Below, piece after piece: positions 1,722 through 21,900 of a DNA stretch of 26,619 bases. The notes under the pieces are model-generated. The model had not been told where the DNA came from. It saw only the letters and a program-made list of their open reading frames with translations, and made no database searches. Each line of letters opens with the position of its first letter. Within the stretch, counting starts at the first letter, position 1. A program made the position numbers and the translations under genes. Origin of the DNA: a virus. Location of the stretch: positions 1-26,619 of IMG/VR virus record IMGVR_UViG_3300017788_000142. One strand, given 5' to 3'.

Positions 1722-1747
1722 ATAGCGTTGAGCACAAAAAAATTCCC

Positions 1748-1964: not shown

Positions 1965-1987
1965 TGATCTGAAAGTTATTTTCTCTT

Positions 1988-3055: not shown

Positions 3056-3062
3056 TATAGAT

Positions 3063-3087
3063 AAAGCAGGGTTCGTCCCTGCTTTTT
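3063..3087 (+). terminator. Intrinsic (rho-independent) terminator
   Basis: AAAGCAGGG (3063-3071) pairs perfectly with CCCTGCTTT (3077-3085) around a 5-base TTCGT loop, and the T run continues through 3087. This nine-pair stem with a U tract is a textbook terminator. It separates the accessory operon from the pre-baseplate genes. Confidence 0.9.
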
Positions 3088-4415: not shown

Positions 4416-6329
4416 ATGGCACTAGTAAATTTTAGCAATCTCGATTTCGATCAAATTAAGAGTTCTCTCAAGGAATATCTGAGAGCAAACTCGAATTTTA
4501 CTGACTATGATTTCGAAGGTTCCAATTTATCAACGATTATTGACACTCTTGCGTACAATACGTACATTACTTCGTACAACGCTAACATGGTTAGCAACGA
4601 AGTTTTCATTGATTCGGCAACTTTAAGAGAAAATGTCGTTTCTCTTGCAAGAGCCATTGGTTATGTGCCAAAATCAAGGAAATCTGCTGTTGCAACGATT
4701 TCATTTTATGTCGATACAACTTCTGAAGCAACAACACCTCTTACAGTAACATTACAAAAAGGTTTAGTTTGTACAAGTGCTTCTTCCTTTGAAGGTACAA
4801 GTTATACCTACAATATCCTTGATCCGGTTACAAAGCCTGTCGTCAATAATATTGCATCATTTGACTCAATTACAATTTATGAGGGAACATATCTTACTCA
4901 GTCATTTACTGTAGATGCAAATAATCCCAATCAGAAGTTTATTCTGACAAACCCTAATATTGATACGTCATCGATACGTGTGAGCGTCAGGAACACGCAG
5001 AACAGCACGGTTACGAGGAAATTTACCCTCGCTGACAATTTAATTGGAATCAACGCATCATCAAAGGTTTTCTTCATTCAAGAGATTGAAGATCAGAGAT
5101 ATGAACTCATCTTTGGCGATGGAGTTTTTGGTGTTAAACTTGATAATCTTAACTACATTGAAGTCTCTTATGTCGCCACCAATGGCAAATATGGAAATGG
5201 CATATCAGATTTTACATATTCTGGAAGAATTTTAGATAATAACGGCACTCCAGTCACAACTTCAATCTCAGCATTAACAACTGACGTTTCATCAAATAAC
5301 GGCCAAGAGATTGAATCTGTAGATTCTATTAAAAAGTACGCTCCACGAATCTATGCATCACAAAATCGTGCAGTTACTGCTGCAGATTATGAAGCAATCA
5401 TTCCTAAGATCTTTCAAGAGACAGAATCAATTTCAGTTTTTGGCGGAGAGACCTTAAATCCCCCAAGATATGGAAAAGTTTATATTTCCATCAAACCTTA
5501 TAATGGAGATTTTGTTTCAGATATTCTTAAAAACGCAATCATAACAGAATTAAGAAAATATACTGTTGCTGGTATTGTAGTAGAAATTATTGACCTTAAG
5601 TATCTGTATGTTGAGTATGATACTGTCGCATATTACAATGCTAACGTAGCTCCTGGAGAAGGAACTGTCAAATCAATTATTCAAAGTAATATTTCCGCGT
5701 ATTCGGACTCAATTGAACTGAATAAGTATGGTTCCAAGTTCAAATACAGTAAATTCCAAAAAATAGTTGACGACAGTCATCAAGCAATCACTTCAAATAT
5801 CACAAAAATCATAATTCGTCGCAATTTACAGGCAAAAGTAAATTATCTTGCTGATTATGAAATTTGTTTTGGAAATGCATTCCACTTAAAGAACACAAAG
5901 AGTGGATATAACATCAAATCATCTGGATTTAATGTTGACGGTATCGTAGATACTGTTTATCTTGGAGATTTACCCAATGCAGATCAAAAAACTGGATCAG
6001 TATTCCTGTTTAAATTAAACTCACCTACAGAACCAGTCGTTGTTCGAAATAATGTTGGCACAATTGATTATGAAAGAGGGGAAGTAAAATTATATCCAAT
6101 TAAAATTACAAATACAGCAAAATCGAAGGATGGTGTGCGAATTATTGAAATTTCTGCATCTCCAAATTCAAATGATGTCATCGGAAAAGAGGATCTTTAT
6201 TTGCAACTAGATATTAATAACAGTGTATTAAATATGCAAACAGATGATATCTCATCTGGAGCAAATATTTCTGGATCAACATACACAGTAACATCAAGTT
6301 ACACAAACGGGAATTTAATCAGATTGTAA
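4416..6329 (+). CDS. 6: gp6-like baseplate wedge protein, 637 aa
   Basis: Homologue of T4 gp6, the wedge protein that forms the continuous ring of the inner baseplate with gp7 and gp53. The N-terminal segment FTDYDFEGSNLSTIIDTLAY (28-47) followed by NANMVSNEVFIDSATLRENV (55-74) is characteristic. The Baseplate_J-type core shows FGDGVFG (233-239) and then APRIYASQNRAVTAADYEAI (309-328). Length is close to T4 gp6 (about 660). It starts at the base after the gp25 stop and ends one base before gene 7. No ribosome binding site is evident, so translation probably depends on coupling. Confidence 0.9.
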   Translation: MALVNFSNLDFDQIKSSLKEYLRANSNFTDYDFEGSNLSTIIDTLAYNTYITSYNANMVSNEVFIDSATLRENVVSLARAIGYVPKSRKSAVATISFYVDTTSEATTPLTVTLQKGLVCTSASSFEGTSYTYNILDPVTKPVVNNIASFDSITIYEGTYLTQSFTVDANNPNQKFILTNPNIDTSSIRVSVRNTQNSTVTRKFTLADNLIGINASSKVFFIQEIEDQRYELIFGDGVFGVKLDNLNYIEVSYVATNGKYGNGISDFTYSGRILDNNGTPVTTSISALTTDVSSNNGQEIESVDSIKKYAPRIYASQNRAVTAADYEAIIPKIFQETESISVFGGETLNPPRYGKVYISIKPYNGDFVSDILKNAIITELRKYTVAGIVVEIIDLKYLYVEYDTVAYYNANVAPGEGTVKSIIQSNISAYSDSIELNKYGSKFKYSKFQKIVDDSHQAITSNITKIIIRRNLQAKVNYLADYEICFGNAFHLKNTKSGYNIKSSGFNVDGIVDTVYLGDLPNADQKTGSVFLFKLNSPTEPVVVRNNVGTIDYERGEVKLYPIKITNTAKSKDGVRIIEISASPNSNDVIGKEDLYLQLDINNSVLNMQTDDISSGANISGSTYTVTSSYTNGNLIRL

Positions 6330-6330
6330 T

Positions 6331-9300
6331 ATGTCAGAATTTAGAGTCAAGACAAGTTTAATCGTTGAAAATCAGGTTCCATCATACGTTAGAGAAGAAT
6401 TTCCTCTTCTTGTTGAATTTTTATCGCAATACTATAGATCTTTAGATTTTCAAAGTGGGCCATCTGATATTTTACAGAATATTGATCAATATGTAAAATT
6501 AGATAGTCTTGTAAACTTAATTGACTCGACCACTTTAAGTTCTTTTGTAGAATTTTATGATACGACGATTAATGTCGTATCTACTACAGGATTTCCAGAC
6601 TCATATGGATTATTGTTGATTGATAATGAAATTATCACATATGAATCAAAGACTTCTACTTCATTTGTAAATTGTAAGAGGGGATTTTCTGGAACAACAG
6701 CATATCAAGACTCAACATCTGTAGATCAACTTGTATTTGCCGACACAAATGTCGATGAACATGCAGATGAGTCTATTGTATCAAATTTAAGTGTTCTTTT
6801 CTTAAAAGAATTTCTGCTCAAAGTTAAAAAGCAAATTTCTCCAGGATTTGATGGAAGAGATCTATATTCTCAACTGAATGAATCCTTATTTCTTAAGCAA
6901 GTAAAAGATTTTTACTCATCAAAGGGAACGGATAATTCATTTAGAATTCTGTTCTATGCTTTGTATGGAGATACTGAAGCTTCGGTCATCAAACCAAGCG
7001 ATTATTTGATTCAACCATCCGATGCTCGTTATTATATCACAAAAGATCTGGTAGTAGAAAAAATTATAGGGGATCCAAATGACCTTGTAGGATCTACGTT
7101 ATATCAAGACGATGAATTCTTTGAACCTGCAAAAGGAACTGTTTCAAAAGTAGAAAGAATTCTTAGAGGGCAAAAAGAGTATTTTATTATCAGTCTTGAT
7201 CATGATCAAGACACAGATTTCCAGGTATATGGCACATTTGCAATTCATCCAAAAACAAGAGTTGTAACAACTGCAGGAATCGGTGTTACAACTCTTGATG
7301 TTGACTCGACAGTTGGATTTCCACAATCAGGAACCCTCATTTTAAATCAGGCTACAGATACTGAGTTTTCCGTAACTTATCAGGAAAAAACACTAAACCA
7401 GTTTCTTGGTTGCTCTAATATTACTTCAGAAATTCCATCACAAAAAGAAGTTGTGTTGGATTCCTATGCATATGGACGTGTCGGCATTTCTACAGATAAC
7501 ATTGTAAAGGTTAGAATAACAGGTGTATTATCGGATCTTAAAATTTTAGATAAGACTTATTATTATGAAAAGGATGAAAGAATTGAAATAGAAAGTCTTG
7601 GTTCAAACTTATCCTCTGCAAAAGCAAACAACTGGTTCTTTAATGTATCAGTAAGATATGATGTAAAATCAATTCAATTAGTAGATGTCTCAACATATAC
7701 TTATCGAGTCAATTTATTTGATGAACATGATTTTGTAATTGGAGATTCAATTACTTTAATTTCATCAAATAGCAGAGAATTCTATGGTGAAATTATTCCA
7801 GAAAATATTAATTCAGTATATTCATCAAGTATTTCTGGATTTGACAGTAAGTTATCTTTTAATATAACTGGCCAAGGACAATTAAATACAGGCGTTTTTT
7901 ATACCGTAAGGAAAAACGTTTCCAAAGTATCTACAACAAATTATGCAAGTTTAACAAAATATACTACTAATGTTCAGAACGTTTATACGGATCTAAATGA
8001 TACTTTATATGTTGCATCCAACTCACTCCCAACATATTATAATAATCCATTAGCAATTAATGATCGATCAATTACTTTCTCGGGATCTTTCTCCGGAACT
8101 GAGTTAATAATTGGAACGCATGGATTTATAACTGGAGATGCAATTGTTTATAATCCAACAGTTAATACAAATAAATTAGACTTACGTTCCGGCATATATT
8201 TTGTTAAAAGAGTAAACAATACTACGATTAGCATTGCAAGAAGCAGAGAAAATATCTTTACGGAAAATTATATTTCTGTAAGTGGAACCGTATCAAATAA
8301 TGTATTCTTCTTATATGATTTTAGTGATGATCTTTTAAATGCAAAACAAGTAGAACCACAAAAATTAATTCGTAAAATATCTCCAGCAGAAAGTGACGGG
8401 TCATCATATGATACTCCTGTTGGAACAACGGGAATGTTTATCAATGGTGTTGAATTAGTTAATTATAAAACAACTGACATTATCTTTTATGGTCCACTGC
8501 AGCAGGTAGTTCCAACTGCATCTGGAAGTGGTTATGATGTTATCAATCCTCCAACTCTTCATATCGCAGATGCAATTGGTTTTGGAGCAACTGGCATTTG
8601 TACTGTAACTGGATCTTTAGTCAGAGTCGATGTCATTGATCCCGGATTTGATTACCTGGAAGATCCAATTATTACAATTACGGGTGGCGATGGATCTGGA
8701 GCTTTGGTCAAACCTAATTTAATCGAGTTTGACCACTCTTCATCCTTCAACTCATCCGCAGGGGCATTACAGGTCAATACAACGAACGATACGATTGGTT
8801 TCTCTTCCTATCATAAGTTCCGAGATTCGGAAGAAGTAATCTATGATACTCAGGGCGGAACAAACGTAAGTGGACTTACAACAGGTGCAAAATACTACGT
8901 CAAGGTTCAGGATGGATTCACTATTAAATTACACAAAACCTTTACAGATTCTGCCGTTGGAATTAATACCGTTGATTTGACATCATATGGTGCTGGAAAT
9001 CATAAATTGCTTTCCACAGCAAAGAAAAAGAAAATTGGAACCATTTCTGTTATTAATGGTGGTAGCGGATATGTAAGTAGTGGATCTACAATTCTACTTA
9101 CAATCAAGAGTAGAATTGGAATTTCAACCTTAACTGGACAAAGTTTTGAGGCCATCTTAAATCCCATCTTTAGAGGAAATATTACGTCAGTTTCTCTCAC
9201 TTCTTCTGGTGTAGAATATGGAAGTGAAGAGATTATCAATTATAATAGGCAACCAACATTCTCTCTGAATAGTGGATCTGGGGCAGAAGTAATACCAGTT

Positions 9301-12300
9301 ATTTCAAATGGAAAAATCAAGCAAGTTTTTGTTACAAAACCTGGGCATGACTATAATTCGTCACCAAATCTGATTATCAATAGTTCAACAGGATCTGGTG
9401 CCGTATTATCTCCAGTTGTTCAAAATGGACAATTAGTAGATGTAAAAGTAATTTTTGAAGGTCTTGGATATTCCGAAGGTACAAATATTGATATTATTGC
9501 AGCAGGATCTGGTGCTCAGTTTGAAGCAGAAATAAAATCTTGGAGAGTAAATGAAGTAGAAAGATTATTATACTTTAATCAAATTAATCTTGATGACGGC
9601 ATTTTATTAAAGTCTAAAACCGAATCATACGGATTGCAATATGGTCATGCTTATGCATCTAGAGGATTGAGATCTTCATCACTTGCAAAAGAAACGGTTG
9701 GCGAAAGACCAATTTATGTTCCAGATTTAAGAACATCTGGAGGATCTGAAATCAATTCATCTTCCCACTCACCAATTATTGGTTGGGCTTATGATGGAAA
9801 TCCAATATATGGGCCATATGGTTTTGATTCTAACGGTTCTGTTAAGAGAATGGTTTCCGGATATACGCAAGTTTCAAGTTCTGTAAGACCCAATATTCTA
9901 AGATATCCCTTAGGATTTTTCGTAGAAGATTATCAATTTACAAATACTGGAGATCTTGATGCAAGTAATGGAAAATATGGGCCAACTCCAGAATATCCAG
10001 ATGGTACATATGCATACTTCTGCACTATAAACTCAGTAAATGATTCCACAGGAATATTCCAATCTTATAGGAGACCAGTATTCCCATATGTAATAGGAAA
10101 TACCTATAAGTCAAATCCAATATCATTTAATTATCTTGCAAGTTCAAATCAAGATGAGATAAACATTAACGAGACTAATTGGAGTAGAAACACTCATCCA
10201 TATCATCTCACAAAATCTAGAAGTTATTATGACTACGTTTTAGATTCAAATAAAATCAAAAAACAGTTATCTTTGATCAAGAGTACAACAAAATCTGGTA
10301 TTGACTCGATTGGAATTACTACAGGTGGATCAAACTATCAAGTAGGTGATAAAATTGTATTTGATAACGAAACTACTGGTGGATTTGGCATTTCCGCAAA
10401 AGTTTCGATTGTAGGAGGAAAACAAGTAACAAGTGTTGGAATTGCTACTTCTACATTAACTAATGTCCAAATGATTCCAATTGCTGATGCTAAGAATTTT
10501 GTTGGTTATTCGCCAAATCCACATAATTATTTAAATCGTGAGACCATCACATTCACAGCTTCTGGAATTACTACGAGTGGAAAAATTACATCAATTGCAA
10601 ATGAACTTTTAGTAACTACTGGAATTGGTTCGACTGGATATACTGGATTGGTAACTTATTTTAATGTATCTGGTAATTTAGTTACGATCAAAGAGAATGA
10701 TGTTTATCAAATTCTTGCAGAGCAAGTAAAGATCTTAAATGTAGATACTGTTTCGTCTAGAATTAGAGTAAGACGTAGTTATAATGAAACTCAAGGAATA
10801 TCTACAATTTCCGCCGGAATTGCAATTACAGAAAGACCAAGAAAGTTTATATTACCATTTGGTATTTCAACTTCAACCTATAATTTTAAATTAGATAAAC
10901 AAATTTATTTTGATCCAAAAGAATCTGTAGGACTGGGAACAACTGCAGGTCCGGGAATTGGATATACTTTAACATTTACAAATCCTGGAGCAGGATTGAC
11001 TCAGATCACAATTCCTACTCAGGCATTATGGTTACCAAAACATGAGATTGAAACTGGAACTCAATTAATCTACAATGCGAATGGTGGGAATGCCATTTCC
11101 ATTTCAACAGATGGAATAAGCAGTTATCAACTTGCAAATGATAGTGTTCTCTATGCTGCACGTCTTGGGGATTATATATTAGGAATTTCTACAGTTAAAG
11201 TTGGATTAGGAACAACAGGTTCTTTTGTTGGAATTGCAACTACAGCATCGCTAGTTTATTTTACAAATATTGGACTTGGCAATACTCATAGCCTTACAAC
11301 AAATTATGATAATACTTTAGATGGAACTACAACATTAAATCGAGTAACTGTATCTACAGCATCGACTCATAATCTTCAGTCTGCAGATTATGCAAATGTT
11401 TCTGTCCTTTCCGGAGTTATCACGAGTTTATACTCTGGAAATTATGAAGTTATTTCTGCGGGCGGAACACAGTTCACATATACAATCAAAGATTATCCAG
11501 AGAACGCTCTCTACACACAAAATGATGGAGAATTAAAATACTCTACTAATTCTACTCAAGTCTATGGATCTATCGTTGGTATTGATTTAATTTCCAAAGG
11601 ACTTTCATATAAAACTTTACCAAAAGTTTCTTATGTAAGTAGCGGAATTGGTACTGGAGCTATCTTAGTTTCATATGGAACAAGTATTGGTTCAATTAAT
11701 AAAATTGAATTGCAAGATATTGGATTTGATTATCCATCAGATTTAAGTTTGAGACCAACAGCAAATCTTCCACAAATTTTACAAGTCAAAGATTTATATT
11801 CATTTGAATCTATTGGAATTGCGTCTGTGGGTAAAAACTATAATGTTGCTCCAGATTTAATTGTTGTTGATGAATTAACAGGGGAAGTAAATTCACAAAC
11901 AAATCTGAGATACAACTTAGGTGACAAGAATGTTACTATTTTAAGTAATGCGTATAATCTCGATAAAGAAACTTCAGTTATTCGATCAGTAAACAATGGA
12001 AATGGTGTTGGTATTAGCACTATAAGATTTATACCAGCATCTCAGGATGTTGTGGTTACTTTAGGTTCTAGTTTCAGTGATGCTGGATCTTATCCATTTG
12101 CAATTGGTGATAGAATTTTAATTGAAAATATTAGTGTTGGAATTGGTTCTACTGCTAAAGGATACAACTCAGAGAGCTATGGATATCGATTCTTTACAAT
12201 TGCGAATTTAGATCCAAATATTGGAGGTATTGGAGGAACAGTTTCTTATAATATTTCTGGATTACTTAAAACTGGAGAAATACCAGGAAATTATGATTCA

Positions 12301-15300
12301 ATTAATTCTGCTGGTAGAATTATACCAGAAAAAGATCTTCCAATATTTGTACCAGAATTTAAGACCAATGATTTCTTAGAAGGTGAAATTGTTAATTCAC
12401 AATCTGCATCTGGTGAAGTTGTAAGATGGAATAATAAAAATTCACTATTAAAAGTTTCTTCAAATATAGATTTTAATTCTGGGGAAGTTGTATCTGGAGA
12501 ATCATCTAAAACTCAAGCTGAAATTGTAAGCGTATTGAATTTTAATTCAATTTATGATGTTAAATCATCTTCAGTTGTCAAAAAAGGTTGGCAAAAAGAA
12601 ACTGGATTTTTGAGTAATGATCTTCAAAAAATTCATGACAACGATTATTACCAATATTTTTCATATTCAGTTAAAACAAATATTCCACTTGAAACCTGGG
12701 ATAGTAGTGTTGACGAATTAAATCATCCAGTAGGATTTAAAAAGTTTGCAGATCTTCAAGTAAAATCTTTACCTGTGGGTGTAGGTATAGGATCAACTGT
12801 TGGAACTGAATCTAATGTAATTGTTGAATTAGATTCTTCACTTAATTTACATTGTAAAACTGACTTTGATCTCGCTAGAGAAAATAACATAATAATTGGA
12901 GCAAATTATGCATCTAATCAAATAATTTTTGAATCTGCGATTCTTCAAGATTATTTGGAGTCTATTGGTAATAGAGTTCTGATGATTGATGATCTTTCAC
13001 CAGAATTTAATAGCAATCCAAGATCTACAAAATATTCAAATATCGATGTCTTTACATTATCTACTGCAAGATATAAAAAGTATGTGACTTTTGTAAATGA
13101 TTTGGCTTATGCTGATCAAAATCAAATTCTTCTTGTTTCATTATTGCATGACGATAATTATGGGTATTTGAATCAGTATGGAAAAATTTATAATGATGAT
13201 GATCTTGGAGCGTTTGACTTTAGTGTTTTTGGTTCTGAGGGTGTATTAGAATTTCATCCAAATTATTATGAAGAGAATAGTTATAATGTTTCATTCTCAG
13301 CTCTTGCTGTCAGCGATCTTACAACGTCCGTTGGGCAATTAAACCTTGGTGATGTTGTAAGTATTGCATCATCAAGCGTAACTATTCCTTCAGGAACATC
13401 AACTGCTACAGCTATTGTTGGAATCGCATCTACTTATAGAGGATCAAAAATTTATGTTGTCATTGGTGCAACAGATGGATCTTACTATGAAGTTGATGAA
13501 CTTAGTGTTGTACATAACGGAACTGATGTTTCATATATGGATTATGGGCAGTTAACAACTGGAAGTCTCTCTTCATATGGTTCTCCAGGAATTGGCACAT
13601 ATTATTCATATCTTTCAGGATCTAATTTAAATGTTGATCTTATTCCATACGCGGGTCTTTCAACAAACTATTTTGTAAATACGATTCGTGTTTCAATTGC
13701 AAACTCATCTTCAGTTGGTGTTGGAACATCATACATCTTTGACGGATTCGTTGGATCTGGTTTTACAAGCATTGCTTCATCGGGTTCTCCAACAGCAGTG
13801 AATGTCGCATCGTTCCCATCAGATCATGATGCAGCCTATTATATTGGTGTTGTCGAAGATTTTACAAATAATGAGTATCAGATTTCTGAAATGGTTGTAT
13901 TAAAAAATCAATCGAATGCATATATTACGGAATATGGATACATTCATACTGATGGATCTCTTGGAGATTTTACAGTTGCAAGAATTGGTGATGATACAGT
14001 ATTGCAATTTACGCCAAGAGCAAATATACAAACACAAGTCAGAGTATATCAAGAAGCAATTACAGCACTACATGCACATGATTATCCTAGAGAAATATCT
14101 TTAAATAATGCTGCTGTAGATGGTGGTCATGCACTCTATGAAGGAACTGCTATTTCTTCTAAGAAAAACTTTGGTTTGACTCATAGACAAAGACCAATTT
14201 TTGAAAGATATTTTGATGGAACATCTACTAATATTGTAGATTTAGCAAATGATAGATTACAGATTCCTGAACATTTCTTTGTAACTGGTGAAAAAATCTA
14301 TTATGAATATGGTGGTTCTGATACCAGTAGTGCCAATGCCATTGGAATTGCAACCACATCAATTTCTGGAATTGGAGTTACTGATAAACTTCCAAGAACT
14401 TTATATGCATATAAAACAGATAACTTATATCTAAAGTTTGCTGGATCAGCTGCTGATGCTTTATCAAGTCCACCAAAGTTCTTAGACATAACCAGTGTTG
14501 GAATTGGAACTTCACATATTGTTAAAGGGTCGAATCAAAATGCTAGATCGATGATTGCAATTGATAACGTAATACAATCACCAATCGTTGGCACTTCAAT
14601 AACAACAACTGTTGGAACATATGTAGAAGCAATAACAAATATTGTTACTCTATCCGGAATTACGTCAATATTCAGTGGAGATTTAATAAAGATTGATAAC
14701 GAAATTATGCGACTTGATACTTTGGGATTTGGTGCAACTAATGTTGCTATTGTTCAAAGAGGATGGCTTGGCACTGGAATTGCTACGCACCAAGTAGGAA
14801 CCGTAGTTACTAAATTATCGGGAAATTATAATATCGATGCAAATACAATTTACTTTGCAAATTCTCCATGGGGGCAAATACCATTTACAAATCCATCAAG
14901 TAGAGCGGATGAACAAGATTATGTTGGACTGATAACTGGATCTACATTTAGTGGTAGAGTCTTCTTAAGATCGGGAGATGTAAATTCTTCTTCTGATGCA
15001 TATTTTTACAATAAAATATTTGATGATATTTCAGAATCATTTACTGGAGTTAATACCAGTTTTATCCTTAAATCTAATGCATCAAATATTACTGGTGTAA
15101 GCACTAGCAATGCGGTGATATTGGTAAATCAAATTTTCCAACAACCATCTAGAAATACATCTCCAATTACGGTGACTGGTAATTATAGTCTTTCAGAGTC
15201 TTCTGGAATTACTACAATCTCGTTCATTGGTAATGCATCACAATCATATGATATTAATGCCTCAGGATTGCCAAGGAAAGGTATACTTGTTTCTGTTGGT

Positions 15301-17376
15301 TCAACTGCTGGATTTGGATTCCAACCTTTAGTTTCAGCTGGAGGAACTGCGGTTGTTTCTATTGCTGGCACAATTCAATCAATTAGTATTGGCAACAGCG
15401 GCTCTGGTTATCGTTCTGGAGCGCAGACTGTAAGAGTTGGTGTTGGAACTTCAAGTACAAGAACTCCAAATATTCAATTTATTGGAACCGCAGCAGTTCA
15501 AAATGGTTGCGTCGTAAGTATTGCGATTACGAATCCCGGAATTGGATATACTAGATCAAATCCTCCAGTTGTCTTTATTGATTCTCCACTTTCTTATAGC
15601 AATATTCCACTCATTTATAGTTCATCTTCAATTCCTGGAATTGGAAGTGGTGCAAAAGTTGATATTGTGGTGGGCCAAGGTTCAAGCGTTGTCAATTTTG
15701 AAGTTAGAAACAGTGGCTATGGATATGGTCAAGGTGAAACTCTTACCGTTGCAATCGGTGGTACAGTTGGTATTCCAACAAATACAACTCTATCCTATCA
15801 AGAATTCAGACTTACTGTTGATAGAACTCATACAGACTCTTTTGCTGGTTGGTCTATTGGCGATTTACAGGTTATTGATCCATTTGATGCTTTATTTGAT
15901 GGAGAAAGAAAAATCTTTCAAATTAAAATAAATGAAGCTCTTACATCTATTAGAACAAGACCTGGATCAAATATTGATATTCAGGCAACGTTATTAGTGT
16001 TTATTAATGATGTTTTACAAGTACCTGGATCTGGATATATTTTCCGTGGAGGTAATTTAATTACATTCCCAGAACCACCAAAATCTGGAGATACTTCAAA
16101 AATTCTCTTCTATAAAGGCACTAGTAATGTTGATGTTGCTTTAGTCGATGTTTTAGAACCAATTGAAGTAGGTGACGGTTTACAATTAATTGATGATTCA
16201 ATTTTCTTAACTGAAGATGAAAGACTTGTTACAAGTATTCCTGCAAGTGATTATGTAAATACGAATACTTATTTTAATCCTGGACTTACATTTGGAGAGA
16301 CCTATGTAAGACCTGTTACACTATGCTATCAAACTGAAGATAAAATTATTGATGGATTAGAAGTTGGAAAAACCAGAGTTCTTTATGAACCATTTGTTCA
16401 ACCATCAACAAATATAATTAATAGTCTTGGAATTACATCTTCAGTAGTATTTGTGGAAAATGCAAAGACTTTCTTTGATTCACAAAAAGAAAATACTACT
16501 GGAAGTACAAACTACAAGAAAATTACTATTACATCTCAAGATGCAGTTTCTGGAGCAGCTGCAACTGCAGTTGTTTCTGCCGCTGGAACAATTACTTCGT
16601 TTGTAATCAGTGATGGTGGTTATGGATATACTTCGGCACCAGACGTGGTTGTTTCAAATCCAGTTGGTCTTGGATCAACATATAGAGCTTCTGGTTCTGC
16701 AACCATAACGAATGGTGTTGTAACATCTATTGGAGTTTCTGCAATTGGTTATGGGTATACATCAACAAATCCGCCATTAGTTTTAATTCAAAGTCCAAAA
16801 GTTACTAAAGAAGAAATATCTAATGTTACATTTGAAGGCGACTTTGGTATTATTACAGGAATTAAAACTACATCAGTTTCTGTTGCAACAACGGGATTAG
16901 TATTTGACTTCTTTATTCCACAGAATTCTTATCTAAGAGATTTAAATATCAATACTGTCGGTATTGCCACAACCGGTGTCAGTGGAATTCAAACTGGATA
17001 TTATTTCGTAGTTAAGAATTCAAATGTTGGAAATGGAGTAACAGCAAAAGATGAAACCGGTGGAACCGTAGGTATTGGAACAACTTGTTTGGATAACATT
17101 TATAAGGCTGTTGCAGTTTCGATTGCACAAACTGCTGTCCCTGGTATTGGATTGACTTATGTTGCAAAAGTAACCATAAGTCTTACTTCATATAATAATC
17201 TTATAGGACTTGGATTTAGTTCATTCTATGGCGAATATAGTTGGGGAAGACTTTCTACTATGAATAGAGTATATCCAAAAGCATTTACAAATTATATCAA
17301 TGGTATTGCTGGAGTTTCAAGTTCTCCAACAGTTCAAAGATTACTTCCTCTGAAATACCGAGATTATACTACATAA
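6331..17376 (+). CDS. 7: Giant gp7-like baseplate wedge protein with YHYH domain, 3681 aa
   Basis: The position between genes 6 and 8 and two segments resembling T4 gp7 support a gp7 assignment. The first is VKDFYSSKGTDNSFRILFYA with DLVGSTLYQ (191-258), like the FYSTKGIEASYKFLF...DLVGQTIY region of T4. The second is DYYQYFSYSVKTNIPLETW with HPVGF (2105-2136), like the T4 segment ending in HPVGF. T4 gp7 is about 1032 residues; the extra length is insertions. These include immunoglobulin-like or beta repeats with GxGY/GSGA motifs, a YHYH-type domain (about 1131-1260), three tandem repeats (2248-2580), a fibre-like FINDVLQVPGSGY module (near 3225-3245) and a conserved-looking C-terminus (LLPLKYRDYTT). 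It should form the outer wedge of the baseplate. One uninterrupted frame, starting one base after gene 6. Confidence 0.8.
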   Translation: MSEFRVKTSLIVENQVPSYVREEFPLLVEFLSQYYRSLDFQSGPSDILQNIDQYVKLDSLVNLIDSTTLSSFVEFYDTTINVVSTTGFPDSYGLLLIDNEIITYESKTSTSFVNCKRGFSGTTAYQDSTSVDQLVFADTNVDEHADESIVSNLSVLFLKEFLLKVKKQISPGFDGRDLYSQLNESLFLKQVKDFYSSKGTDNSFRILFYALYGDTEASVIKPSDYLIQPSDARYYITKDLVVEKIIGDPNDLVGSTLYQDDEFFEPAKGTVSKVERILRGQKEYFIISLDHDQDTDFQVYGTFAIHPKTRVVTTAGIGVTTLDVDSTVGFPQSGTLILNQATDTEFSVTYQEKTLNQFLGCSNITSEIPSQKEVVLDSYAYGRVGISTDNIVKVRITGVLSDLKILDKTYYYEKDERIEIESLGSNLSSAKANNWFFNVSVRYDVKSIQLVDVSTYTYRVNLFDEHDFVIGDSITLISSNSREFYGEIIPENINSVYSSSISGFDSKLSFNITGQGQLNTGVFYTVRKNVSKVSTTNYASLTKYTTNVQNVYTDLNDTLYVASNSLPTYYNNPLAINDRSITFSGSFSGTELIIGTHGFITGDAIVYNPTVNTNKLDLRSGIYFVKRVNNTTISIARSRENIFTENYISVSGTVSNNVFFLYDFSDDLLNAKQVEPQKLIRKISPAESDGSSYDTPVGTTGMFINGVELVNYKTTDIIFYGPLQQVVPTASGSGYDVINPPTLHIADAIGFGATGICTVTGSLVRVDVIDPGFDYLEDPIITITGGDGSGALVKPNLIEFDHSSSFNSSAGALQVNTTNDTIGFSSYHKFRDSEEVIYDTQGGTNVSGLTTGAKYYVKVQDGFTIKLHKTFTDSAVGINTVDLTSYGAGNHKLLSTAKKKKIGTISVINGGSGYVSSGSTILLTIKSRIGISTLTGQSFEAILNPIFRGNITSVSLTSSGVEYGSEEIINYNRQPTFSLNSGSGAEVIPVISNGKIKQVFVTKPGHDYNSSPNLIINSSTGSGAVLSPVVQNGQLVDVKVIFEGLGYSEGTNIDIIAAGSGAQFEAEIKSWRVNEVERLLYFNQINLDDGILLKSKTESYGLQYGHAYASRGLRSSSLAKETVGERPIYVPDLRTSGGSEINSSSHSPIIGWAYDGNPIYGPYGFDSNGSVKRMVSGYTQVSSSVRPNILRYPLGFFVEDYQFTNTGDLDASNGKYGPTPEYPDGTYAYFCTINSVNDSTGIFQSYRRPVFPYVIGNTYKSNPISFNYLASSNQDEININETNWSRNTHPYHLTKSRSYYDYVLDSNKIKKQLSLIKSTTKSGIDSIGITTGGSNYQVGDKIVFDNETTGGFGISAKVSIVGGKQVTSVGIATSTLTNVQMIPIADAKNFVGYSPNPHNYLNRETITFTASGITTSGKITSIANELLVTTGIGSTGYTGLVTYFNVSGNLVTIKENDVYQILAEQVKILNVDTVSSRIRVRRSYNETQGISTISAGIAITERPRKFILPFGISTSTYNFKLDKQIYFDPKESVGLGTTAGPGIGYTLTFTNPGAGLTQITIPTQALWLPKHEIETGTQLIYNANGGNAISISTDGISSYQLANDSVLYAARLGDYILGISTVKVGLGTTGSFVGIATTASLVYFTNIGLGNTHSLTTNYDNTLDGTTTLNRVTVSTASTHNLQSADYANVSVLSGVITSLYSGNYEVISAGGTQFTYTIKDYPENALYTQNDGELKYSTNSTQVYGSIVGIDLISKGLSYKTLPKVSYVSSGIGTGAILVSYGTSIGSINKIELQDIGFDYPSDLSLRPTANLPQILQVKDLYSFESIGIASVGKNYNVAPDLIVVDELTGEVNSQTNLRYNLGDKNVTILSNAYNLDKETSVIRSVNNGNGVGISTIRFIPASQDVVVTLGSSFSDAGSYPFAIGDRILIENISVGIGSTAKGYNSESYGYRFFTIANLDPNIGGIGGTVSYNISGLLKTGEIPGNYDSINSAGRIIPEKDLPIFVPEFKTNDFLEGEIVNSQSASGEVVRWNNKNSLLKVSSNIDFNSGEVVSGESSKTQAEIVSVLNFNSIYDVKSSSVVKKGWQKETGFLSNDLQKIHDNDYYQYFSYSVKTNIPLETWDSSVDELNHPVGFKKFADLQVKSLPVGVGIGSTVGTESNVIVELDSSLNLHCKTDFDLARENNIIIGANYASNQIIFESAILQDYLESIGNRVLMIDDLSPEFNSNPRSTKYSNIDVFTLSTARYKKYVTFVNDLAYADQNQILLVSLLHDDNYGYLNQYGKIYNDDDLGAFDFSVFGSEGVLEFHPNYYEENSYNVSFSALAVSDLTTSVGQLNLGDVVSIASSSVTIPSGTSTATAIVGIASTYRGSKIYVVIGATDGSYYEVDELSVVHNGTDVSYMDYGQLTTGSLSSYGSPGIGTYYSYLSGSNLNVDLIPYAGLSTNYFVNTIRVSIANSSSVGVGTSYIFDGFVGSGFTSIASSGSPTAVNVASFPSDHDAAYYIGVVEDFTNNEYQISEMVVLKNQSNAYITEYGYIHTDGSLGDFTVARIGDDTVLQFTPRANIQTQVRVYQEAITALHAHDYPREISLNNAAVDGGHALYEGTAISSKKNFGLTHRQRPIFERYFDGTSTNIVDLANDRLQIPEHFFVTGEKIYYEYGGSDTSSANAIGIATTSISGIGVTDKLPRTLYAYKTDNLYLKFAGSAADALSSPPKFLDITSVGIGTSHIVKGSNQNARSMIAIDNVIQSPIVGTSITTTVGTYVEAITNIVTLSGITSIFSGDLIKIDNEIMRLDTLGFGATNVAIVQRGWLGTGIATHQVGTVVTKLSGNYNIDANTIYFANSPWGQIPFTNPSSRADEQDYVGLITGSTFSGRVFLRSGDVNSSSDAYFYNKIFDDISESFTGVNTSFILKSNASNITGVSTSNAVILVNQIFQQPSRNTSPITVTGNYSLSESSGITTISFIGNASQSYDINASGLPRKGILVSVGSTAGFGFQPLVSAGGTAVVSIAGTIQSISIGNSGSGYRSGAQTVRVGVGTSSTRTPNIQFIGTAAVQNGCVVSIAITNPGIGYTRSNPPVVFIDSPLSYSNIPLIYSSSSIPGIGSGAKVDIVVGQGSSVVNFEVRNSGYGYGQGETLTVAIGGTVGIPTNTTLSYQEFRLTVDRTHTDSFAGWSIGDLQVIDPFDALFDGERKIFQIKINEALTSIRTRPGSNIDIQATLLVFINDVLQVPGSGYIFRGGNLITFPEPPKSGDTSKILFYKGTSNVDVALVDVLEPIEVGDGLQLIDDSIFLTEDERLVTSIPASDYVNTNTYFNPGLTFGETYVRPVTLCYQTEDKIIDGLEVGKTRVLYEPFVQPSTNIINSLGITSSVVFVENAKTFFDSQKENTTGSTNYKKITITSQDAVSGAAATAVVSAAGTITSFVISDGGYGYTSAPDVVVSNPVGLGSTYRASGSATITNGVVTSIGVSAIGYGYTSTNPPLVLIQSPKVTKEEISNVTFEGDFGIITGIKTTSVSVATTGLVFDFFIPQNSYLRDLNINTVGIATTGVSGIQTGYYFVVKNSNVGNGVTAKDETGGTVGIGTTCLDNIYKAVAVSIAQTAVPGIGLTYVAKVTISLTSYNNLIGLGFSSFYGEYSWGRLSTMNRVYPKAFTNYINGIAGVSSSPTVQRLLPLKYRDYTT
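8500..9530 (+). repeat. Gly/Tyr beta-module repeats, cluster A in gene 7
   Basis: At least five degenerate copies of a module with a G-x-G-Y turn, a strand, and a GSGA turn can be read: GSGYDVINPPTL, GGSGYVSSG, SGVEYGSEE, PGHDYNSSPNL and GLGYSEGTN, with SGSGAE, STGSGAV and AAGSGAQ between. The DNA 10-mer GGATCTGGTG recurs exactly at 9391 and 9505. Confidence 0.65.
9721..10100 (+). other. YHYH-type domain encoded within gene 7
   Basis: Residues about 1131-1257 of the gp7-like protein contain GWAYDGNPIYGPYGF (1151-1165), then YPLGFFVEDYQF, LDASNGKYGPTPEYPDGTYA (1209-1228) and YFCTI. This order (YDG-PIYGPYG, LD--NG, PEYPDGTY-YF) is the signature of the YHYH domain as I remember it. The domain's function is unknown to me. 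Confidence 0.7.
11560..11860 (+). repeat. Gly/Tyr beta-module repeats, cluster B in gene 7
   Basis: Three more copies are recognisable: SKGLSYKTLPKVSYV, DIGFDYPSDLSL and SVGKNYNVAPDLIVV, with GIGTGAILVSY as the GSGA-type turn. They lie between the YHYH region and the second gp7 core segment. Confidence 0.55.
13072..13311 (+). repeat. Tandem ~125-aa repeat in gene 7, copy 1
   Basis: The core reads KKYVTFVNDLAYADQNQI, then LVSLLHDDNYGYLNQYGKIY and LGAFDFSV...GVLEFHPNYY. Shared positions with copies 2 and 3 are the Y-V-V strand, a short loop, a Y/I strand with L/M-V-hydrophobic, Y..YG.I, LG.F and a L.F.P-type strand. Confidence 0.6.
13441..13710 (+). repeat. Tandem ~125-aa repeat in gene 7, copy 2
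   Basis: The core reads GSKIYVVIGATDGSYYEVDE, then LSVVHNGTDVSYMDYGQLTT and LNVDLIPYAG. The matching tyrosine codon lies 372 bases (124 codons) after that of copy 1. It is the most divergent copy in its middle, with a GSPGIGTYYSYLSGS insertion. Confidence 0.6.
13831..14070 (+). repeat. Tandem ~125-aa repeat in gene 7, copy 3
   Basis: The core reads AAYYIGVVEDFTNNEYQISE, then MVVLKNQSNAYITEYGYIHT and LGDFTVARIGDDTVLQFTP. The matching tyrosine codon lies 387 bases (129 codons) after that of copy 2. Its LGDF and VLQFTP strands match LGAF and VLEFHP of copy 1 closely. Confidence 0.6.
15330..15770 (+). repeat. Gly/Tyr beta-module repeats, cluster C in gene 7
   Basis: Three clear copies occur close together: NSGSGYRSGAQTV, NPGIGYTRSNPPVVFI and NSGYGYGQGETLTV, with PGIGSGAKVDIVV between the last two. 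They follow a GFGFQPLVSAGGTAVVSIAG segment, which I associate with cyanophage tail proteins. Confidence 0.65.
16540..16800 (+). repeat. Gly/Tyr beta-module repeats, cluster D in gene 7
   Basis: Two near-identical copies are adjacent: ISDGGYGYTSAPDVVVSNP and SAIGYGYTSTNPPLVLIQSP, joined by ASGSATITNGVVTSIGV. They lie about 270 residues before the C-terminus of the giant protein. Confidence 0.65.
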
Positions 17377-17379
17377 ATA
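17372..17379 (+). promoter_or_regulatory. Late promoter octamer candidate overlapping the gene 7 stop (CATAAATA)
   Basis: Seven of eight bases match TATAAATA. The octamer includes the TAA stop of gene 7 and lies 15 bases before the ATG of gene 8. A start near 17385 would leave a leader of only about ten bases. Confidence 0.5.
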
Positions 17380-17394
17380 CATAAAAAACTCCAA

Positions 17395-18948
17395 ATGGCT
17401 GCTATTATAACAGATCAATTTAGAATATTGAGTGCTAAGAATTTTGTTTCTGTAGCTAGTTCTTCAGACAACTCATATTATGTTTTTGTAGGACTTCCCA
17501 ATGCGTCAGAATATAGTACGACGTGGGACACAAATCCTCCAGCACCAAAGGATAATTTTAGTGAAGAGAATTCATATTGGGATACTGCAATTGCAGTCAA
17601 AAAAATATCGACAGAAAATATTAAACAAATTATTAGAAAGATAACCTGGACATCGGGAATTACTTATGACATGTATAGACATGATATAAGTAGAACTAAT
17701 ACATCAAAACCATCTGATGCAACTAGTTTATATGCTGCAAATTATTATGTCGTAAACTCGGACTACAGAGTTTATATCTGTTTACAAAATGGAACAAATC
17801 CAGAAAACCCAGAAGGAAGACCTTCTCTTGATGAGCCAATCTTTACAGATTTAGAACCAAGATCCGCAGGTACAAGTGGTGATGGATATATTTGGAAATA
17901 TCTGTATACAATTGCTCCTAGCGATATTATCAAGTTTGAAACTTCAAATTTTATTCCTGTTCCAAAAGATTGGGGAACTAGTGATACAAACTCAACAGTA
18001 AGAAACAATGCCGCTACAAGCGGACAGATCAAAATTGTAACGATTACCAATCGTGGTGTTGGCATTGGAACTGCAAACACAACCTACACTAGAGTTCCAA
18101 TTAAAGGAGATGGGATTGGTGCCGAAGCAACAATCATCATCAACAATAATTCTAAAGTAGAATCTATTACAATATCCAATGGTGGATCTAGTTATACCTA
18201 TGGAACAGTTGATTTAGTTGCAGGAAACGTACCTGTAGGAACTACTCAACCAAACTTTGACGTAATTATTCCTCCAAAAGGTGGACATGGAGCAGATATC
18301 TATAGAGAACTTGGGGCTAATAGAGTTGCACTTTACGCGAGAATTGAAAACGACACACAAAATCCAGATTTTATAACAGGAAATCAAATTTCAAGAGTTG
18401 GTGTAATTGAAAATCCATTGGTTTACAATTCAAGTTTTATCCTTACTGAAGATAAGGCAAGTGCAGTTTATGCATTGAAACTTGTTGGTACTGGATATAG
18501 CACTGCAACTTTTATTGCCGATGCATTAGTTACCCAAACAGTAGGAGTAGCATCTACTGCTGTTGGTAGAGTCATTTCATATGATCAAAATACTGGAGTT
18601 TTAAAATACTGGCAAGATAGAACTCTTGTTGGATTTAATAGTGATGGTACTAAAAACTCCACACCAATTTATGGATTTAATATGAATAGATTCACATCAT
18701 CTCCTGGTGTTGGTGGCACTACTATAATTCAAGGTGGAAGTGCTGGATTATCTATTGATACAAATTACAATGGTATATCTACCTCAATAAATAGTAGGAC
18801 ATATTATTTTGGACAGAACTTTATTAATGGTGTGTCTAGTCCAGAAGTTCAAAAGTATTCTGGAAACATCATTCATGTAGATAATAGACCCTCTGTTACA
18901 AGATCGTCTAGCCAAAAAGAAGATATCAAGGTAATTTTGCAATTCTAA
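17395..18948 (+). CDS. 8: gp8-like baseplate wedge protein, 517 aa
   Basis: Homologue of T4 gp8, a wedge protein of the baseplate. Three blocks align with T4 gp8 as I remember it. These are GDGYIWKYLYTIAP (162-175) followed by NFIPVPKDWG (185-194), like GDGYVWEYLFEIPP and VPWPEE; GNQISRVGVIENPL (329-342), like FRQISIITNPL; and KYSGNIIHVDNRPSVTR with a final IKVILQF (487-517), like HSGEMIYMENRPP and INILFTF. T4 gp8 is about 334 residues. The extra length lies mainly in two insertions, residues 195-296 and about 343-482, that carry GSSY/GTGY beta modules and a TGVLKYWQD segment. No Shine-Dalgarno is visible. The next gene begins six bases after the stop. Confidence 0.88.
   Translation: MAAIITDQFRILSAKNFVSVASSSDNSYYVFVGLPNASEYSTTWDTNPPAPKDNFSEENSYWDTAIAVKKISTENIKQIIRKITWTSGITYDMYRHDISRTNTSKPSDATSLYAANYYVVNSDYRVYICLQNGTNPENPEGRPSLDEPIFTDLEPRSAGTSGDGYIWKYLYTIAPSDIIKFETSNFIPVPKDWGTSDTNSTVRNNAATSGQIKIVTITNRGVGIGTANTTYTRVPIKGDGIGAEATIIINNNSKVESITISNGGSSYTYGTVDLVAGNVPVGTTQPNFDVIIPPKGGHGADIYRELGANRVALYARIENDTQNPDFITGNQISRVGVIENPLVYNSSFILTEDKASAVYALKLVGTGYSTATFIADALVTQTVGVASTAVGRVISYDQNTGVLKYWQDRTLVGFNSDGTKNSTPIYGFNMNRFTSSPGVGGTTIIQGGSAGLSIDTNYNGISTSINSRTYYFGQNFINGVSSPEVQKYSGNIIHVDNRPSVTRSSSQKEDIKVILQF
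18010..18230 (+). repeat. Gly/Tyr beta-module copy inserted in gene 8
   Basis: IVTITNRGVGIGTANTTYT, then GDGIGAEATIIINNNSKVES and ISNGGSSYTYGTVDLV repeat the turn-strand-GSGA-strand pattern of the gene 7 modules. It sits exactly in the first insertion relative to T4 gp8. Confidence 0.6.
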
Positions 18949-18954: not shown

Positions 18955-21900
18955 ATGCCAGAGTCAACCAATCTCAACGTTTCTCCATATTTTGATGATT
19001 TTGATTCTACTAAGAATTATTATAAGGTCTTGTTTAAACCTGGATATCCTGTTCAGGCTAGAGAATTAACTACTTTACAATCCATTCTTAAAAACCAAAT
19101 TGAACAATTTGGTAATCACGTATTTAAAGAAGGATCTGTAGTAATCCCTGGGCAGTTAAGTTATACAAATCAGTATAAATTCGTAAAGATTGAAAATTCA
19201 TATCTCGGCGTAGACGTAAGCGTTTATATTAATGATCTTGTAGGTAAAAAAATCACAGGAGATCAATCTAAAGTACAAGCACAAATTTTATCTGTGCTTC
19301 CACAAAACGAACTTGGAAATGAATATACAACTCTTTATGTGAACTATTTGGCTTCTGGATTGGGTGATCAAAAAGTATTTTCAGATAATGAAAAATTAAC
19401 ACTTAACGAAAGTTACTCTCAAAACTCAATCATTATTCAAAGTGGTGAAGGATTTGCAAACACTACTTTATCTGCGACTGGTAATGGTTCTGCTGCTGTT
19501 CTTAGCAATGGAATTTATTTCTTGCGCGGATACTTTGTTGAAGTATCTGAGCAAACATTAGTTCTTGAACCATATAGCAATATCCCAAGTTATAAAGTTG
19601 GATTTGATATTATTGAAGAATTTATTAATGCGGATGAAGATGATTCTTTAAATGATACTGCGAAAGGATTTTCTAACTATGTAGCACCAGGAGCTGATAG
19701 ATTTAAAATCACTGCAGTATTATCTAAGAAAGGTTTAACAGAAACGACAGCAGAAAATTTTATTAGTTTATTAGAAGTAAGAAGTGGAGAATTAGTAAAA
19801 AATACAACTACAACATCCCAATATAACGTTCTTTCTACAGAACTTGCTAGAAGAACATCTGAAGAGTCTGGTGATTATTATGTCAGACCATTTGACATTA
19901 CTGTAAAAGAAACTTTAAATGACAATCTTGGAAATAATGGAGTATTTCAAGAAGGTCAGTTAACATATAATAATCAAACTCCTAAAGAAAGTTTAGGCAC
20001 TTATAAAATTGGTGCAGGAAAAGCATATGTCAAAGGATATGAAGTAGAATCTTTATCTGCAAATTTCCTCGATTTCCAAAAACCAAGAACAACAAAAACA
20101 ATTACTGATGCAAGTCTTGCATATGTAACTGGTCCGACTTTTACAGTTAATAATGCTTTTGGAGCTCCTAATTTAAATCTTGGAAGTCCATTCATTGTAA
20201 GTTTAAGAGACTCTAGAGTTGGAGTTGTTTCTGCTACGCTTCCAGGAAAAGAAATTGGATTAGCAAGAGTTTATGATTATGCTTTAGAATCTGGATCCTA
20301 TAATACCACGAATTTAAAATTAAATCAATGGGATATTTCTTTATTTGATGTAGAAACCTATACTGAAATTACTCTTAACCAAAATGTAACGTTAACAACT
20401 CCAGTTCATATTAAAGGAAAAGCAAGCGGAGCTACTGGATACCTTAGATTTGATGTTAATAATGCAGGCATTCTTACTGCATATGGTGTGAAAGGATCAT
20501 TTGCTGCAAATGAGAAATTTATCTTTAATGGCGTAGAAACCACAAGTAGAGTTTCTACTGCGATTACTGAGTATACAATACAAAATGTAGAATCTTTATC
20601 AAATGTAAGCACATCTTCAACTTCATTCACTGCAGATATTGTACCAACTATTACATATAATGTAGGACTTGCTTCTGTTACTGCAAGATCTGCAACTGGA
20701 ATCAGCAGCATTAGTTTAAATGTAGGAAATAGTAACTTTGCATTTACAAATAATGTGAAAGTTGGTGGATTAGTAAAATATACAATTGCTGGATCCACAG
20801 TTCCAACTCATAACACAATTGTTACAGTTTCAGCAAATTCTATTGTTGTAACTGGAGTTACGACTGTAACTGGAATTTGTGAGGGTTCTCCACCGGCAAC
20901 AGCAAGTTCTGTAAGTGATCTTGCAATTCTTGGATCTTCTTTTCAGACTTCAGTAGATAATACTTTATATACGAAGCTTCCTAAGAATTTTATTTCTTCT
21001 GTAGATCTTACAGATTCTAATCTTACAATTAAAAAAGAATTTGCCGTTACTATTGCAAGCAATCAATCAAACACATTGGTTGCATCTGCAAATGAAACAT
21101 TCTTACCATTTGATGAAGAAAGATACGTACTGGTTAGATCTGACGGCACATTTGAAACGTTACGTGCAGATAAGTTCTCATTTGATGCAACTGGATCTCA
21201 ACTAACAATTTTTGGATTAGGCTCAAATGATAGTGGTGCAAGACTGATTGCAACTTTGCGTAAAATCAAAGTTAAAGCAAAAGCAAAAAATAAGAACAGA
21301 ATCAAAACTTTAATCATCAATAAATCAAAGTATGAGCATTCTGGTATTGGATCAACCACTGTAAATGATGGATTAACTTACGGAACGTTCCCATACGGCA
21401 CAAGAGTTCAGGATGAAGAGATTTGTCTGAATGTTCCAGATGTAACAAAGCTCTACGGCATTTTTGAATCTACAACAACATCTGAAGCGTCTTTACCAGC
21501 AGTTACCTTCAGCTCTTTAACTGGACCTACAAATAAAACTAGCGATTTGTTAGTTGGTGAAAAATTTACGGGACAAACTTCAGGAGCTGTTGCGGTCTTT
21601 ACAAATAAAGTCAATGATCTTCAAATTAATTATGTTTACTTAAACGACAAGTCATTCCAATCAAGTGAAGTTGTAATGTTTGAAGAAAGTGGAATTAATG
21701 CCACTATTTCTGCCCTTACATTGTCCGATAAAAATATAACTGCAGATTATACATTAGATGCTTCACAAAAAAATACAATCTATGATTATTCCAGAATTGT
21801 AAGAAATCCAGTATCAAAAGAACCAGTAAAGCAAATTAAAATTATTTTTGAATCTGCAAGTTTTGCATCTTCAGATCTTGGAGATATCACGATTGTAAAT

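Follow-up and report, generated by a model that had tools for sequence, protein, structure and literature searches.

The virus record IMGVR_UViG_3300017788_000142 of IMG/VR, 26,619 bases long and analyzed here in full (the window), is probably a fragment. It contains an uninterrupted open reading frame (ORF) of 3,681 codons at 6331–17376 on the + strand. We consider it very likely that this ORF is real and that it encodes gp7, the baseplate wedge protein of a marine T4-like virus of the cyanophage type, with the core of gp7 split within it. The conserved core comprises about 260 residues, consisting of a helical bundle, a segment with the motif FYSxKG, a beta part and a segment with the motif SYxxHPxG. 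Two loops of this core carry interruptions, and its C-terminal end is extended. The immediate neighbors of the ORF are gp6 on one side and gp8 on the other. Its match to PHROG 2885 ('baseplate wedge subunit') scores 3063 bits and runs in four stretches along most of the protein.

The two parts of the gp7 core

The motifs DFYSSKG, DLVGSTLY and HPVGF are found at residues 193, 251 and 2132 of the window protein, and at 733, ~780 and 884 of T4 gp7. The spacing is ~1,880 residues in the window, compared with ~100 in T4. An earlier note, made from the sequence alone, had proposed that a T4 gp7 core is split in this manner, and this is borne out by what follows. When the N- and C-terminal segments are taken separately, both match consecutive parts of gp7 in profile–profile alignment, with hidden Markov models (HMMs) and in the fold of a compact gp7; neither lacks a gp7 match or matches an unrelated fold. 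Residues 6–303 (the N core) and 2084–2141 (the C core) correspond to T4 gp7 ~643–837 and 844–894, and the two pieces are six residues apart in T4 gp7 and 1,780 apart in the window.

We compared gp7 from 23 named sources, comprising seven T4-type proteins, the window, eight bridging proteins and seven others. The bridging gp7 (247–1,006 residues) are those of Yut3, pf16, RHph_I1_18, Cr30, phiM7, phiOC, SRB7757 and Bakedbeans. A profile aligned from them matches that of the T4-type gp7 over T4 644–830 in HHalign, with a probability of 98.7 and E = 2e-16. Window residues 1–330 (84 rows) match the T4-type profile with a probability of 96.6 and the bridging profile with 99.6. Within the T4-type match residues 185–290 pair with T4 gp7 725–814 (E = 6e-10), and further upstream residues 6–60 pair with Yut3 3–57 (probability 97.3). 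Window residues 2021–2200 (45 rows, those covering under 40% having been dropped) match the bridging profile with a probability of 98.1, and the T4-type profile with 41.2 (E = 2.8e-4) over T4 817–889. The N match at T4 725–814 and the C match at 817–889 are therefore consecutive in T4 gp7. A further bridge is provided by PHROG 26741 (497 positions), which is matched by T4 gp7 664–759 and by the window protein at 183–308 and 2070–2144.

Circularity was avoided by building HMMs from the eight bridging gp7 alone, with no T4-type and no cyanophage row. They were searched against the 23 gp7 together with 4,198 further sequences, of which 460 were shuffles and the rest ORFs from the loci described below, gp7 genes among them. 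The N HMM finds window residues 8–300 with an independent E-value (iE) of 4.6e-21 and all seven T4-type gp7 at 2e-5 to 3.8e-12, and the C HMM finds window residues 2086–2138 at 1.6e-12. In the same database the best shuffled decoys have iE of 16 (N) and 33 (C). Within the set of 23 proteins the expected place is the best C HMM match in all seven T4-type gp7, with iE of 1.5e-4 to 9.2e-3 for six of them and 0.35 for T4 gp7 itself.

When 41 overlapping segments of the window protein were scanned against the T4-type profile, a probability above 30 was obtained only for the two segments that hold residues 185–290. Two C-part segments reached 12.9 and 6.5, and the best match of every other segment was 1.5 or less. 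Against the bridging profile other segments reached up to 92.6, but at Yut3 216–370, where Yut3 has GxGY repeats of its own. Among the control segments gp6 was profiled from relatives; gp8 and a VrlC-like protein entered as single sequences and are a weaker control.

The whole window protein matched no PDB sequence at E up to 10. When PDB sequences were searched with an N-core profile of 59 rows, to which compact gp7 contributed 14, T4 gp7 ranked first (E = 2.9e-6).

A graded series of intervals

For measuring the interval between the two parts, T4, RB16, KVP40 and the window were added to the proteins from which the HMMs were built. It is 6–13 residues in the T4-type gp7 (n = 7; six in T4), 0 in Bakedbeans, 11 in phiOC and 16 in SRB7757. 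It rises to 150 in pf16, 162 in both Yut3 and YB07, 244 in RHph_I1_18, 313 in Melnitz-3, 318 in Atu_ph04, 328 in LG08, 461 in Cr30 and in HTVC008M (290 to 752 in the latter) and 716 in phiM7. The longest intervals are those of the window (1,780), P-SSM2 (2,166), S9220M01 (2,172) and Syn19 (2,632).

We extended this to the window and 236 viral loci. These are not a random sample: one of the scans behind them looked for the C motif and two for N parts of the cyanophage type, and in at least six cases two loci represent the same contig. In all 162 ORFs that have both parts, the window included, the N part precedes the C part, and there is a single C part per ORF in the 28 that were printed as rows. 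The gap is 40 residues or fewer in eight of the 162 (smallest 15), 41–200 in 21, 201–600 in 32, 601–1,200 in 19, 1,201–2,000 in 10 and over 2,000 in 72, the largest seen being 2,393. The N part occurs alone in 76 ORFs, of which 70 run off the end of the locus, five end inside it and one is a weak match in the VrlC-like protein of the window. The C part occurs alone in one ORF. Profile alignments and predicted models together show that the two core pieces match neighboring stretches of T4 gp7, and that insertions at this one site vary widely in length among related phages. This graded series at one site makes the growth of the baseplate open to test.

Structure prediction

The AlphaFold2 model of window residues 1–330 (59 rows) contains helices at residues 6–62. 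Its best Foldseek match among 350,542 PDB chains is 5iv5_BJ, from the T4 baseplate. We infer that this chain is gp7 from its length of 1,004 and the gp7 numbering of the alignment; in the PDB 5hx2_A is called gp7, and entries 5iv5 and 9f4a hold gp7 of that length.

In place of the two window parts joined together we folded a natural compact gp7 of 273 residues, L106, in which the core parts adjoin. Its alignment (32 rows) contains neither T4 nor the window. The first three PDB matches of the model are 9f4a_A0 (E = 6.8e-10), 5iv5_BJ (1.6e-8) and 5hx2_A (2.7e-7), followed by baseplate chains of other phages and of injection systems from E = 1.7e-2. The model aligns with 5iv5_BJ 643–891 over 217 residues with Z = 9.8, the best non-gp7 row having Z = 6.7. 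The root-mean-square deviation of this alignment is high, at 14, which we take to reflect jointed parts. Searched against PDB sequences, the L106 alignment finds the gp7 of 9f4a at 648–898 (E = 8.6e-12), spanning both parts, and T4 gp7 at 646–759 (E = 1.6e-11), spanning the N part.

Anatomy of the protein

All positions are on the + strand. The first helices of the N core are residues 6–62 (6346–6516), with Pfam family PF23786 (Baseplate_wedge) at 8–43. The family scores 21.5 bits on the whole protein and 27.7 bits on residues 1–330 alone, against a cut-off of 27 bits. Beta module A (residues 63–152; 6517–6786) lies inside the helical part; it is a gap in the alignment with Yut3 and forms strands in the model. 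The second part of the N core, residues 153–303 (6787–7239), carries DFYSSKG and DLVGSTLY.

The large insertion of 1,780 residues (304–2083; 7240–12579) is the interval between the two core HMM matches. At its start lies beta module B (residues 320–368; 7288–7434), a second copy of module A (iE = 1.2e-22). In the gp7 of P-SSM2, S9220M01 and Syn19, too, a module related to A directly follows the N core. The shared module is placed both in the helical loop (residues 78–123) and at the insert start (320–368), and likewise in P-SSM2 and S9220M01. GxGY beta repeats follow at residues 732–779, 936–965, 970–1012 and 1010–1049 (8524–9477; iterated HMM, iE 2.5e-20 to 2.5e-5) and at 1758–1804 (11602–11742; iE = 4.3e-12). 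Between them is a partial YHYH domain (PF14240) at residues 1141–1234 (9751–10032), with E = 7e-21 and 75.5 bits against a cut-off of 25. The match spans only positions 87–183 of the 193 in the profile and leaves the N-terminal half of the domain unmatched, so the metal site predicted for the YHYH family may be incomplete here.

The C core (residues 2084–2141; 12580–12753), with DYYQYFSY...HPVGF, is followed by a C-terminal extension of 1,540 residues (12754–17373) with four GxGY repeats (3002–3074 and 3394–3479). By the iterated HMM there are nine repeats in all, five of them within the large interval. The beta repeats and other domains that the earlier note placed in the interval are thus present, as five GxGY repeats and the partial YHYH domain, and so are the beta repeats on the C-terminal side. 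The best PHROG 2885 stretches of the pieces are 1–330, 339–916, 1138–1696 and 1698–3047 (the last including 2028–2167 and 2173–3047), and residues 3048–3681 fall outside every one of them.

T4 gp7 carries the Pfam domains Gp7_helical, Gp7_5th and Gp7_6th, and none of these is listed for the window protein at E up to 1; domain VI of T4 gp7 (PF21456) is likewise not listed at that threshold. Nor were the N-terminal ~640 residues of T4 gp7 detected, no window segment best matching T4 1–642 with a probability above 1.5. The N-terminal half of T4 gp7 is a separate extension that lies outside the shared scaffold.

Points of growth

Four ports are seen across the gp7 set: the N end, a loop in the helical part, a loop in the beta part that is the site of the large insert, and the C end. 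Growth at the N end amounts to 642 residues in T4 and 264–271 in Atu_ph04 and LG08, in the helical loop to 90 in the window and ~600 in Syn19, and at the C end to 1,540 in the window and 138 in T4. The large insert carries GxGY repeats in the window, Yut3, Melnitz-3, phiM7, Cr30, Atu_ph04 and HTVC008M, and in Syn19 both inserts do.

The earlier note had cast gp7 as a scaffold into which domains were inserted. Since both pieces match consecutive parts of gp7, the scaffold with a large insertion stands. It is confined, though, to the core of ~260 residues, the N-terminal 640 residues of T4 not being found, and the window protein has grown at three points rather than one, namely module A (63–152), the insert (304–2083) and the C-terminal extension of 1,540 residues. 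The proposed more than threefold increase in mass applies to gp7 (3,681 compared with 1,032 residues) and not to the wedge as a whole.

Comparison with known gp7 proteins

The closest known proteins are the cyanophage gp7 termed 'baseplate wedge initiator' (PHROG 2885), those of P-SSM2 (5,195 residues) and S9220M01 (4,067 residues) being related to the window protein along nearly the whole length. They share its gene order, split core and beta modules. The insert of the window is ~390 residues shorter than theirs, and its C-terminal extension of 1,540 residues compares with 2,677 in P-SSM2 and 1,562 in S9220M01. T4 gp7 (1,032 residues; PDB 5iv5 and 5hx2) shares the core, at 643–894, and the place between gp6 and gp8. 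Unlike the window protein it has no internal insert, and its ~640 extra N-terminal residues and domain VI were not found in the window.

The compact gp7 related to PF23786 are those of Yut3 from Stenotrophomonas (503 residues), phiOC (631), SRB7757 (586) and Bakedbeans (247). PF23786 scores above its cut-off in Yut3, phiOC and Bakedbeans, the three of the four that were scanned. All four have both parts in order, separated by 0–162 residues compared with 1,780 in the window, and module A was not found in them. Yut3 gp7, which lies between gp6 and gp8 and is annotated as hypothetical, already has GxGY repeats at the site of the large insert.

The same core adjoining gp6 is found in a Syn19 'virion structural protein' (6,483 residues), which differs from the window protein in also having ~600 residues in the helical loop, and in an HTVC008M protein named 'head closure Hc2' (1,016 residues), with an interval of 461 residues compared with 1,780. 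The Syn19 protein (T4-GC 969; L091:3645–23096) is gp7, with 2,632 residues in the beta loop.

More distant likenesses rest on published descriptions. According to one report (PMC10457771) gp17 of XM1, a gp7 counterpart of 242 residues, holds the tail spikes through residues 80–106 and 201–242. According to another (PMC10966104) a C-terminal loop of the A-1(L) wedge protein gp32 helps to hold the long tail fiber; we infer that gp32 is the counterpart of gp7 in a simple wedge. Both are described there as a helical bundle with the gp6 counterpart, and no large insert is described. The ports of the window protein are placed much like these loops, inside the helical domain in one case and C-terminally in the other.

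Weighing the evidence

Several observations weigh against the assignment of a split gp7 core, most of them concerning the C part. In the large database the bridging-only C HMM gives six T4-type gp7 iE of only 0.028 to 1.7, and T4 gp7 itself gives nothing below iE 10. A profile of window residues 1996–2200 matches no gp7 among PDB sequences at E up to 10, and one restricted to the C core ranks a gp7 first with E = 0.04 only. Because these direct scores are weak, the sequence link of the C part to T4 gp7 rests mainly on the bridging gp7. The models are middling, with a mean predicted local distance difference test (pLDDT) score of 75.7 for residues 1–330 and 73.5 for L106 and predicted TM scores (pTM) of 0.43 and 0.42, and the Foldseek match of residues 1–330 to 5iv5_BJ is weak (E = 2.8e-3, TM 0.14). 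The 50 rows listed by VIA-align for that model include no gp7. They are filled by the beta module at 63–157, so this says nothing against gp7; the module resembles small barrels of phage structural proteins (8jov_1, Z = 10.3; 9in6_M, 10.2; 8rk3_b, 9.1) and also barrels in F1-ATPases. Five ORFs with an N part (L011, L029, L240, L249 and L260; 320–961 residues) end inside the locus with no C part, and broken genes, assembly errors or split genes are candidate explanations. No experiment on this gp7 was found in the literature.

If the weak C-part match to T4 is taken at face value, only the N-terminal 300 residues would be gp7, the HPVGF segment being unrelated or a chance match and the rest a fused structural protein. 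We find this highly improbable. An HMM of bridging gp7 that is free of cyanophages finds the C part at 1.6e-12, all 162 ORFs that have both parts have the C part after the N part, eight of them with only 15–40 residues between, compact L106 folds onto T4 643–891, and the profile of the C core alone still puts gp7 first in the PDB. The giant length of the protein might by itself suggest a precursor that is cut after assembly, leaving the gp7 core and the insert as separate chains in the virion. Nothing else was found in favor of it, though no search for a cleavage site or protease was made. As sequence from either side of the insert is required to make up the core, we regard such cleavage as very unlikely.

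What the insert does is a separate matter. The insert and C-terminal extension might be a cassette for host recognition or cell wall degradation, with YHYH as a metal-dependent hydrolase, and not part of the baseplate structure. The presence of a YHYH domain is in accord with this, and so is the conservation of the insert, which is ~10 points of identity lower than that of the core. In six relatives, identity to the window is 17–77% in insert regions within 310–2083, with the minimum immediately ahead of the C core, and 34–89% in core regions; four of the six are cut at the ends of their loci, and the far C-terminal part was compared in two. Yet at least 79% of positions can be aligned in each insert region. 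Compared with S9220M01 the insert has 25–48% identity and the core 45–54%, and at 43% the YHYH region does not stand out from the sequence around it as more variable. The YHYH match is also partial (87–183 of 193 profile positions), and the GxGY repeat recurs in gp8. With an insert that is more variable than the core yet short of hypervariable, the sequence comparison leans toward structure over recognition without settling it, and we judge the cassette possible but somewhat unlikely. A further alternative is that the long form is ancestral and compact forms have lost the insert. Losses may occur, given that the window, L008 and L017 (inserts of 1,779–1,793 residues) nest among relatives with ~2,100–2,400; the nesting suggests that some 320 residues were lost later in the window sublineage. 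However, nearly gapless gp7 appear in several places of the tree, and the XM1 counterpart has only 242 residues (PMC10457771), so we consider an ancestral long form unlikely. The tree has 56 rows, made up of 23 named sources (YB07 left out, HTVC008M added) and 33 ORFs (every fifth contig ORF). It is quick and unrooted with long branches, and does not settle the direction of change. Insert size tracks the core tree, with six label changes compared with a mean of 25.6 in shuffles, although near-copies alone would cluster labels.

A possible role for the insert

The wedge core of other phages is made of one gp7 together with two gp6 chains. On our preferred interpretation as gp7 with a split core, the two core pieces would rejoin in the folded protein, and the rejoined core would pair with two gp6 chains as in T4 gp7, anchoring the wedge. 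The insert would exit at a single loop and consist of beta modules in a row (the GxGY repeats and the YHYH domain). The core would be kept for gp6 assembly while the inserts form outer baseplate or sockets for fibers. The insert would do the work of the N-terminal half of T4 gp7 and perhaps that of peripheral pin proteins, or it would hold tail fibers, in the way that loops of the gp7 counterpart are described as holding the tail spikes of XM1 (PMC10457771). At the periphery T4 gp7 contacts gp10 and gp9 (PMC3004832).

More tentatively, gp7 may be a small universal wedge scaffold with fixed ports, of which the T4-type proteins used the N end for growth and the marine T4-like proteins, reaching as many as 6,483 residues, used the C end and two loops, so that built-in arms in the marine lineage replace separate peripheral proteins of the T4 baseplate. 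If so, one gp7 chain per wedge would make most of the outer baseplate in that lineage. In Syn19, genes annotated gp9 and wedge subunit lie beside the giant gp7, and could speak against the replacement of the pins.

Gene order and the type of virus

The genes for gp25, gp6, gp7, gp8 and the VrlC-like protein all run in the same direction (+). The baseplate wedge protein gp25 (4014–4415) matches phrog_261 (E = 3.3e-51). Its neighbor gp6 (4416–6329), the wedge partner of gp7, matches phrog_219 (E = 3.4e-193) and the gp6 chains 5hx2_D (E = 4.7e-30) and 9f4a_AX (E = 8.2e-33) in the PDB. Wedge protein gp8 (17395–18948; phrog_438, E = 6.6e-160; PF09215) contains one GxGY repeat. The VrlC-like protein of 2,498 residues (18955–26451) contains DUF4815, and by BLASTP matches VrlC of HTVC008M (3e-90) and part of that of phiM7 (4.5e-54). 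Upstream genes at 1039–1713, 1988–2767 and 3097–3798 match phrog_1644 (minor coat protein), phrog_1574 (unknown) and phrog_3704 (ferredoxin).

Searched against 50,697 phage records, residues 1–330 of gp7 match 466 with E of 1e-5 or less: 372 Synechococcus, 61 'Cyanophage', 24 Prochlorococcus, five 'Marine virus' and four Methylophilales. As these are mostly cyanophage, with the best ones mostly annotated wedge, the matches place the virus as a cyanophage-like, marine T4-like one whose gp7 belongs to a family already known.

Annotation of gp7 in marine phages

The cyanophage gp7 family is already known, often annotated as gp7, and P-SSM2 and others carry the name 'gp7' in GenBank. With the present assignment a giant protein of marine phages becomes a known part with a mapped core. 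We found no paper describing a split gp7 core in a literature search short of most subscription journals. The earlier note had suggested that such proteins may go unrecognized as gp7. This applies to Syn19 ('virion structural protein') and HTVC008M ('head closure Hc2'), but not to PHROG 2885, named for the baseplate wedge, nor to most of the best 60 of the 466 records, in which 46 are labeled baseplate wedge protein, four are unannotated, two have no feature there and eight are labeled otherwise, one of them with the gene symbol gp7.

In Sullivan et al. 2010 (PMC3037559), gp7 is named under the non-cyanophage core, as divergent to the point that proteins of this kind are spread over up to nine clusters. 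A 2017 paper on DLP6 (PMC5349666) gives gp7 identities against phages including HTVC008M, cyanophages and T4, all of 4 to 11.3%. According to Zaragoza-Solas et al. 2020 (PMC7029224), cyano- and pelagimyophages lack T4 gp7, for which VrlC seems to be the substitute. Our results contradict this, as HTVC008M and the window each combine VrlC with a gp7 core. The co-occurrence of the two genes leads us to reject VrlC as a substitute for gp7. In the VrlC of HTVC008M the N-core HMM has only weak local matches (iE of 0.0058 and 0.033) and the C-core HMM none.

The HTVC008M protein I899_gp055, 'head closure Hc2', is gp7. It is encoded at L264:4436–7486 (HTVC008M 33435–36485) between gp6 and gp8, and has the N core at 148–290 (iE = 7.6e-30) and the C core at 752–804 (iE = 5.3e-17). 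PHROG 3465, which bears the name head closure Hc2, aligns with it over the full length, and from this match looks like gp7 as well. Four HTVC008M proteins named 'baseplate wedge initiator' (L263:8146–10026, 10674–13736, 13761–15650 and 15700–18906) were rejected as gp7, having no match to the N- or C-core HMM at iE up to 1. They match PHROG 8215 and tail-fiber families, and two have an endosialidase chaperone domain. Two mislabels are explained in this way, HTVC008M gp7 being called head closure and tail-fiber-like proteins there being called wedge initiator. A weak match in Pantoea phage Survivor (E about 6), where no wedge gene is annotated, was dropped. In Ochrobactrum phage vB_OspM_OC (L103:4001–5884) both neighboring wedge genes are noted 'T4-like gp7', although in position and length the first corresponds to gp6.

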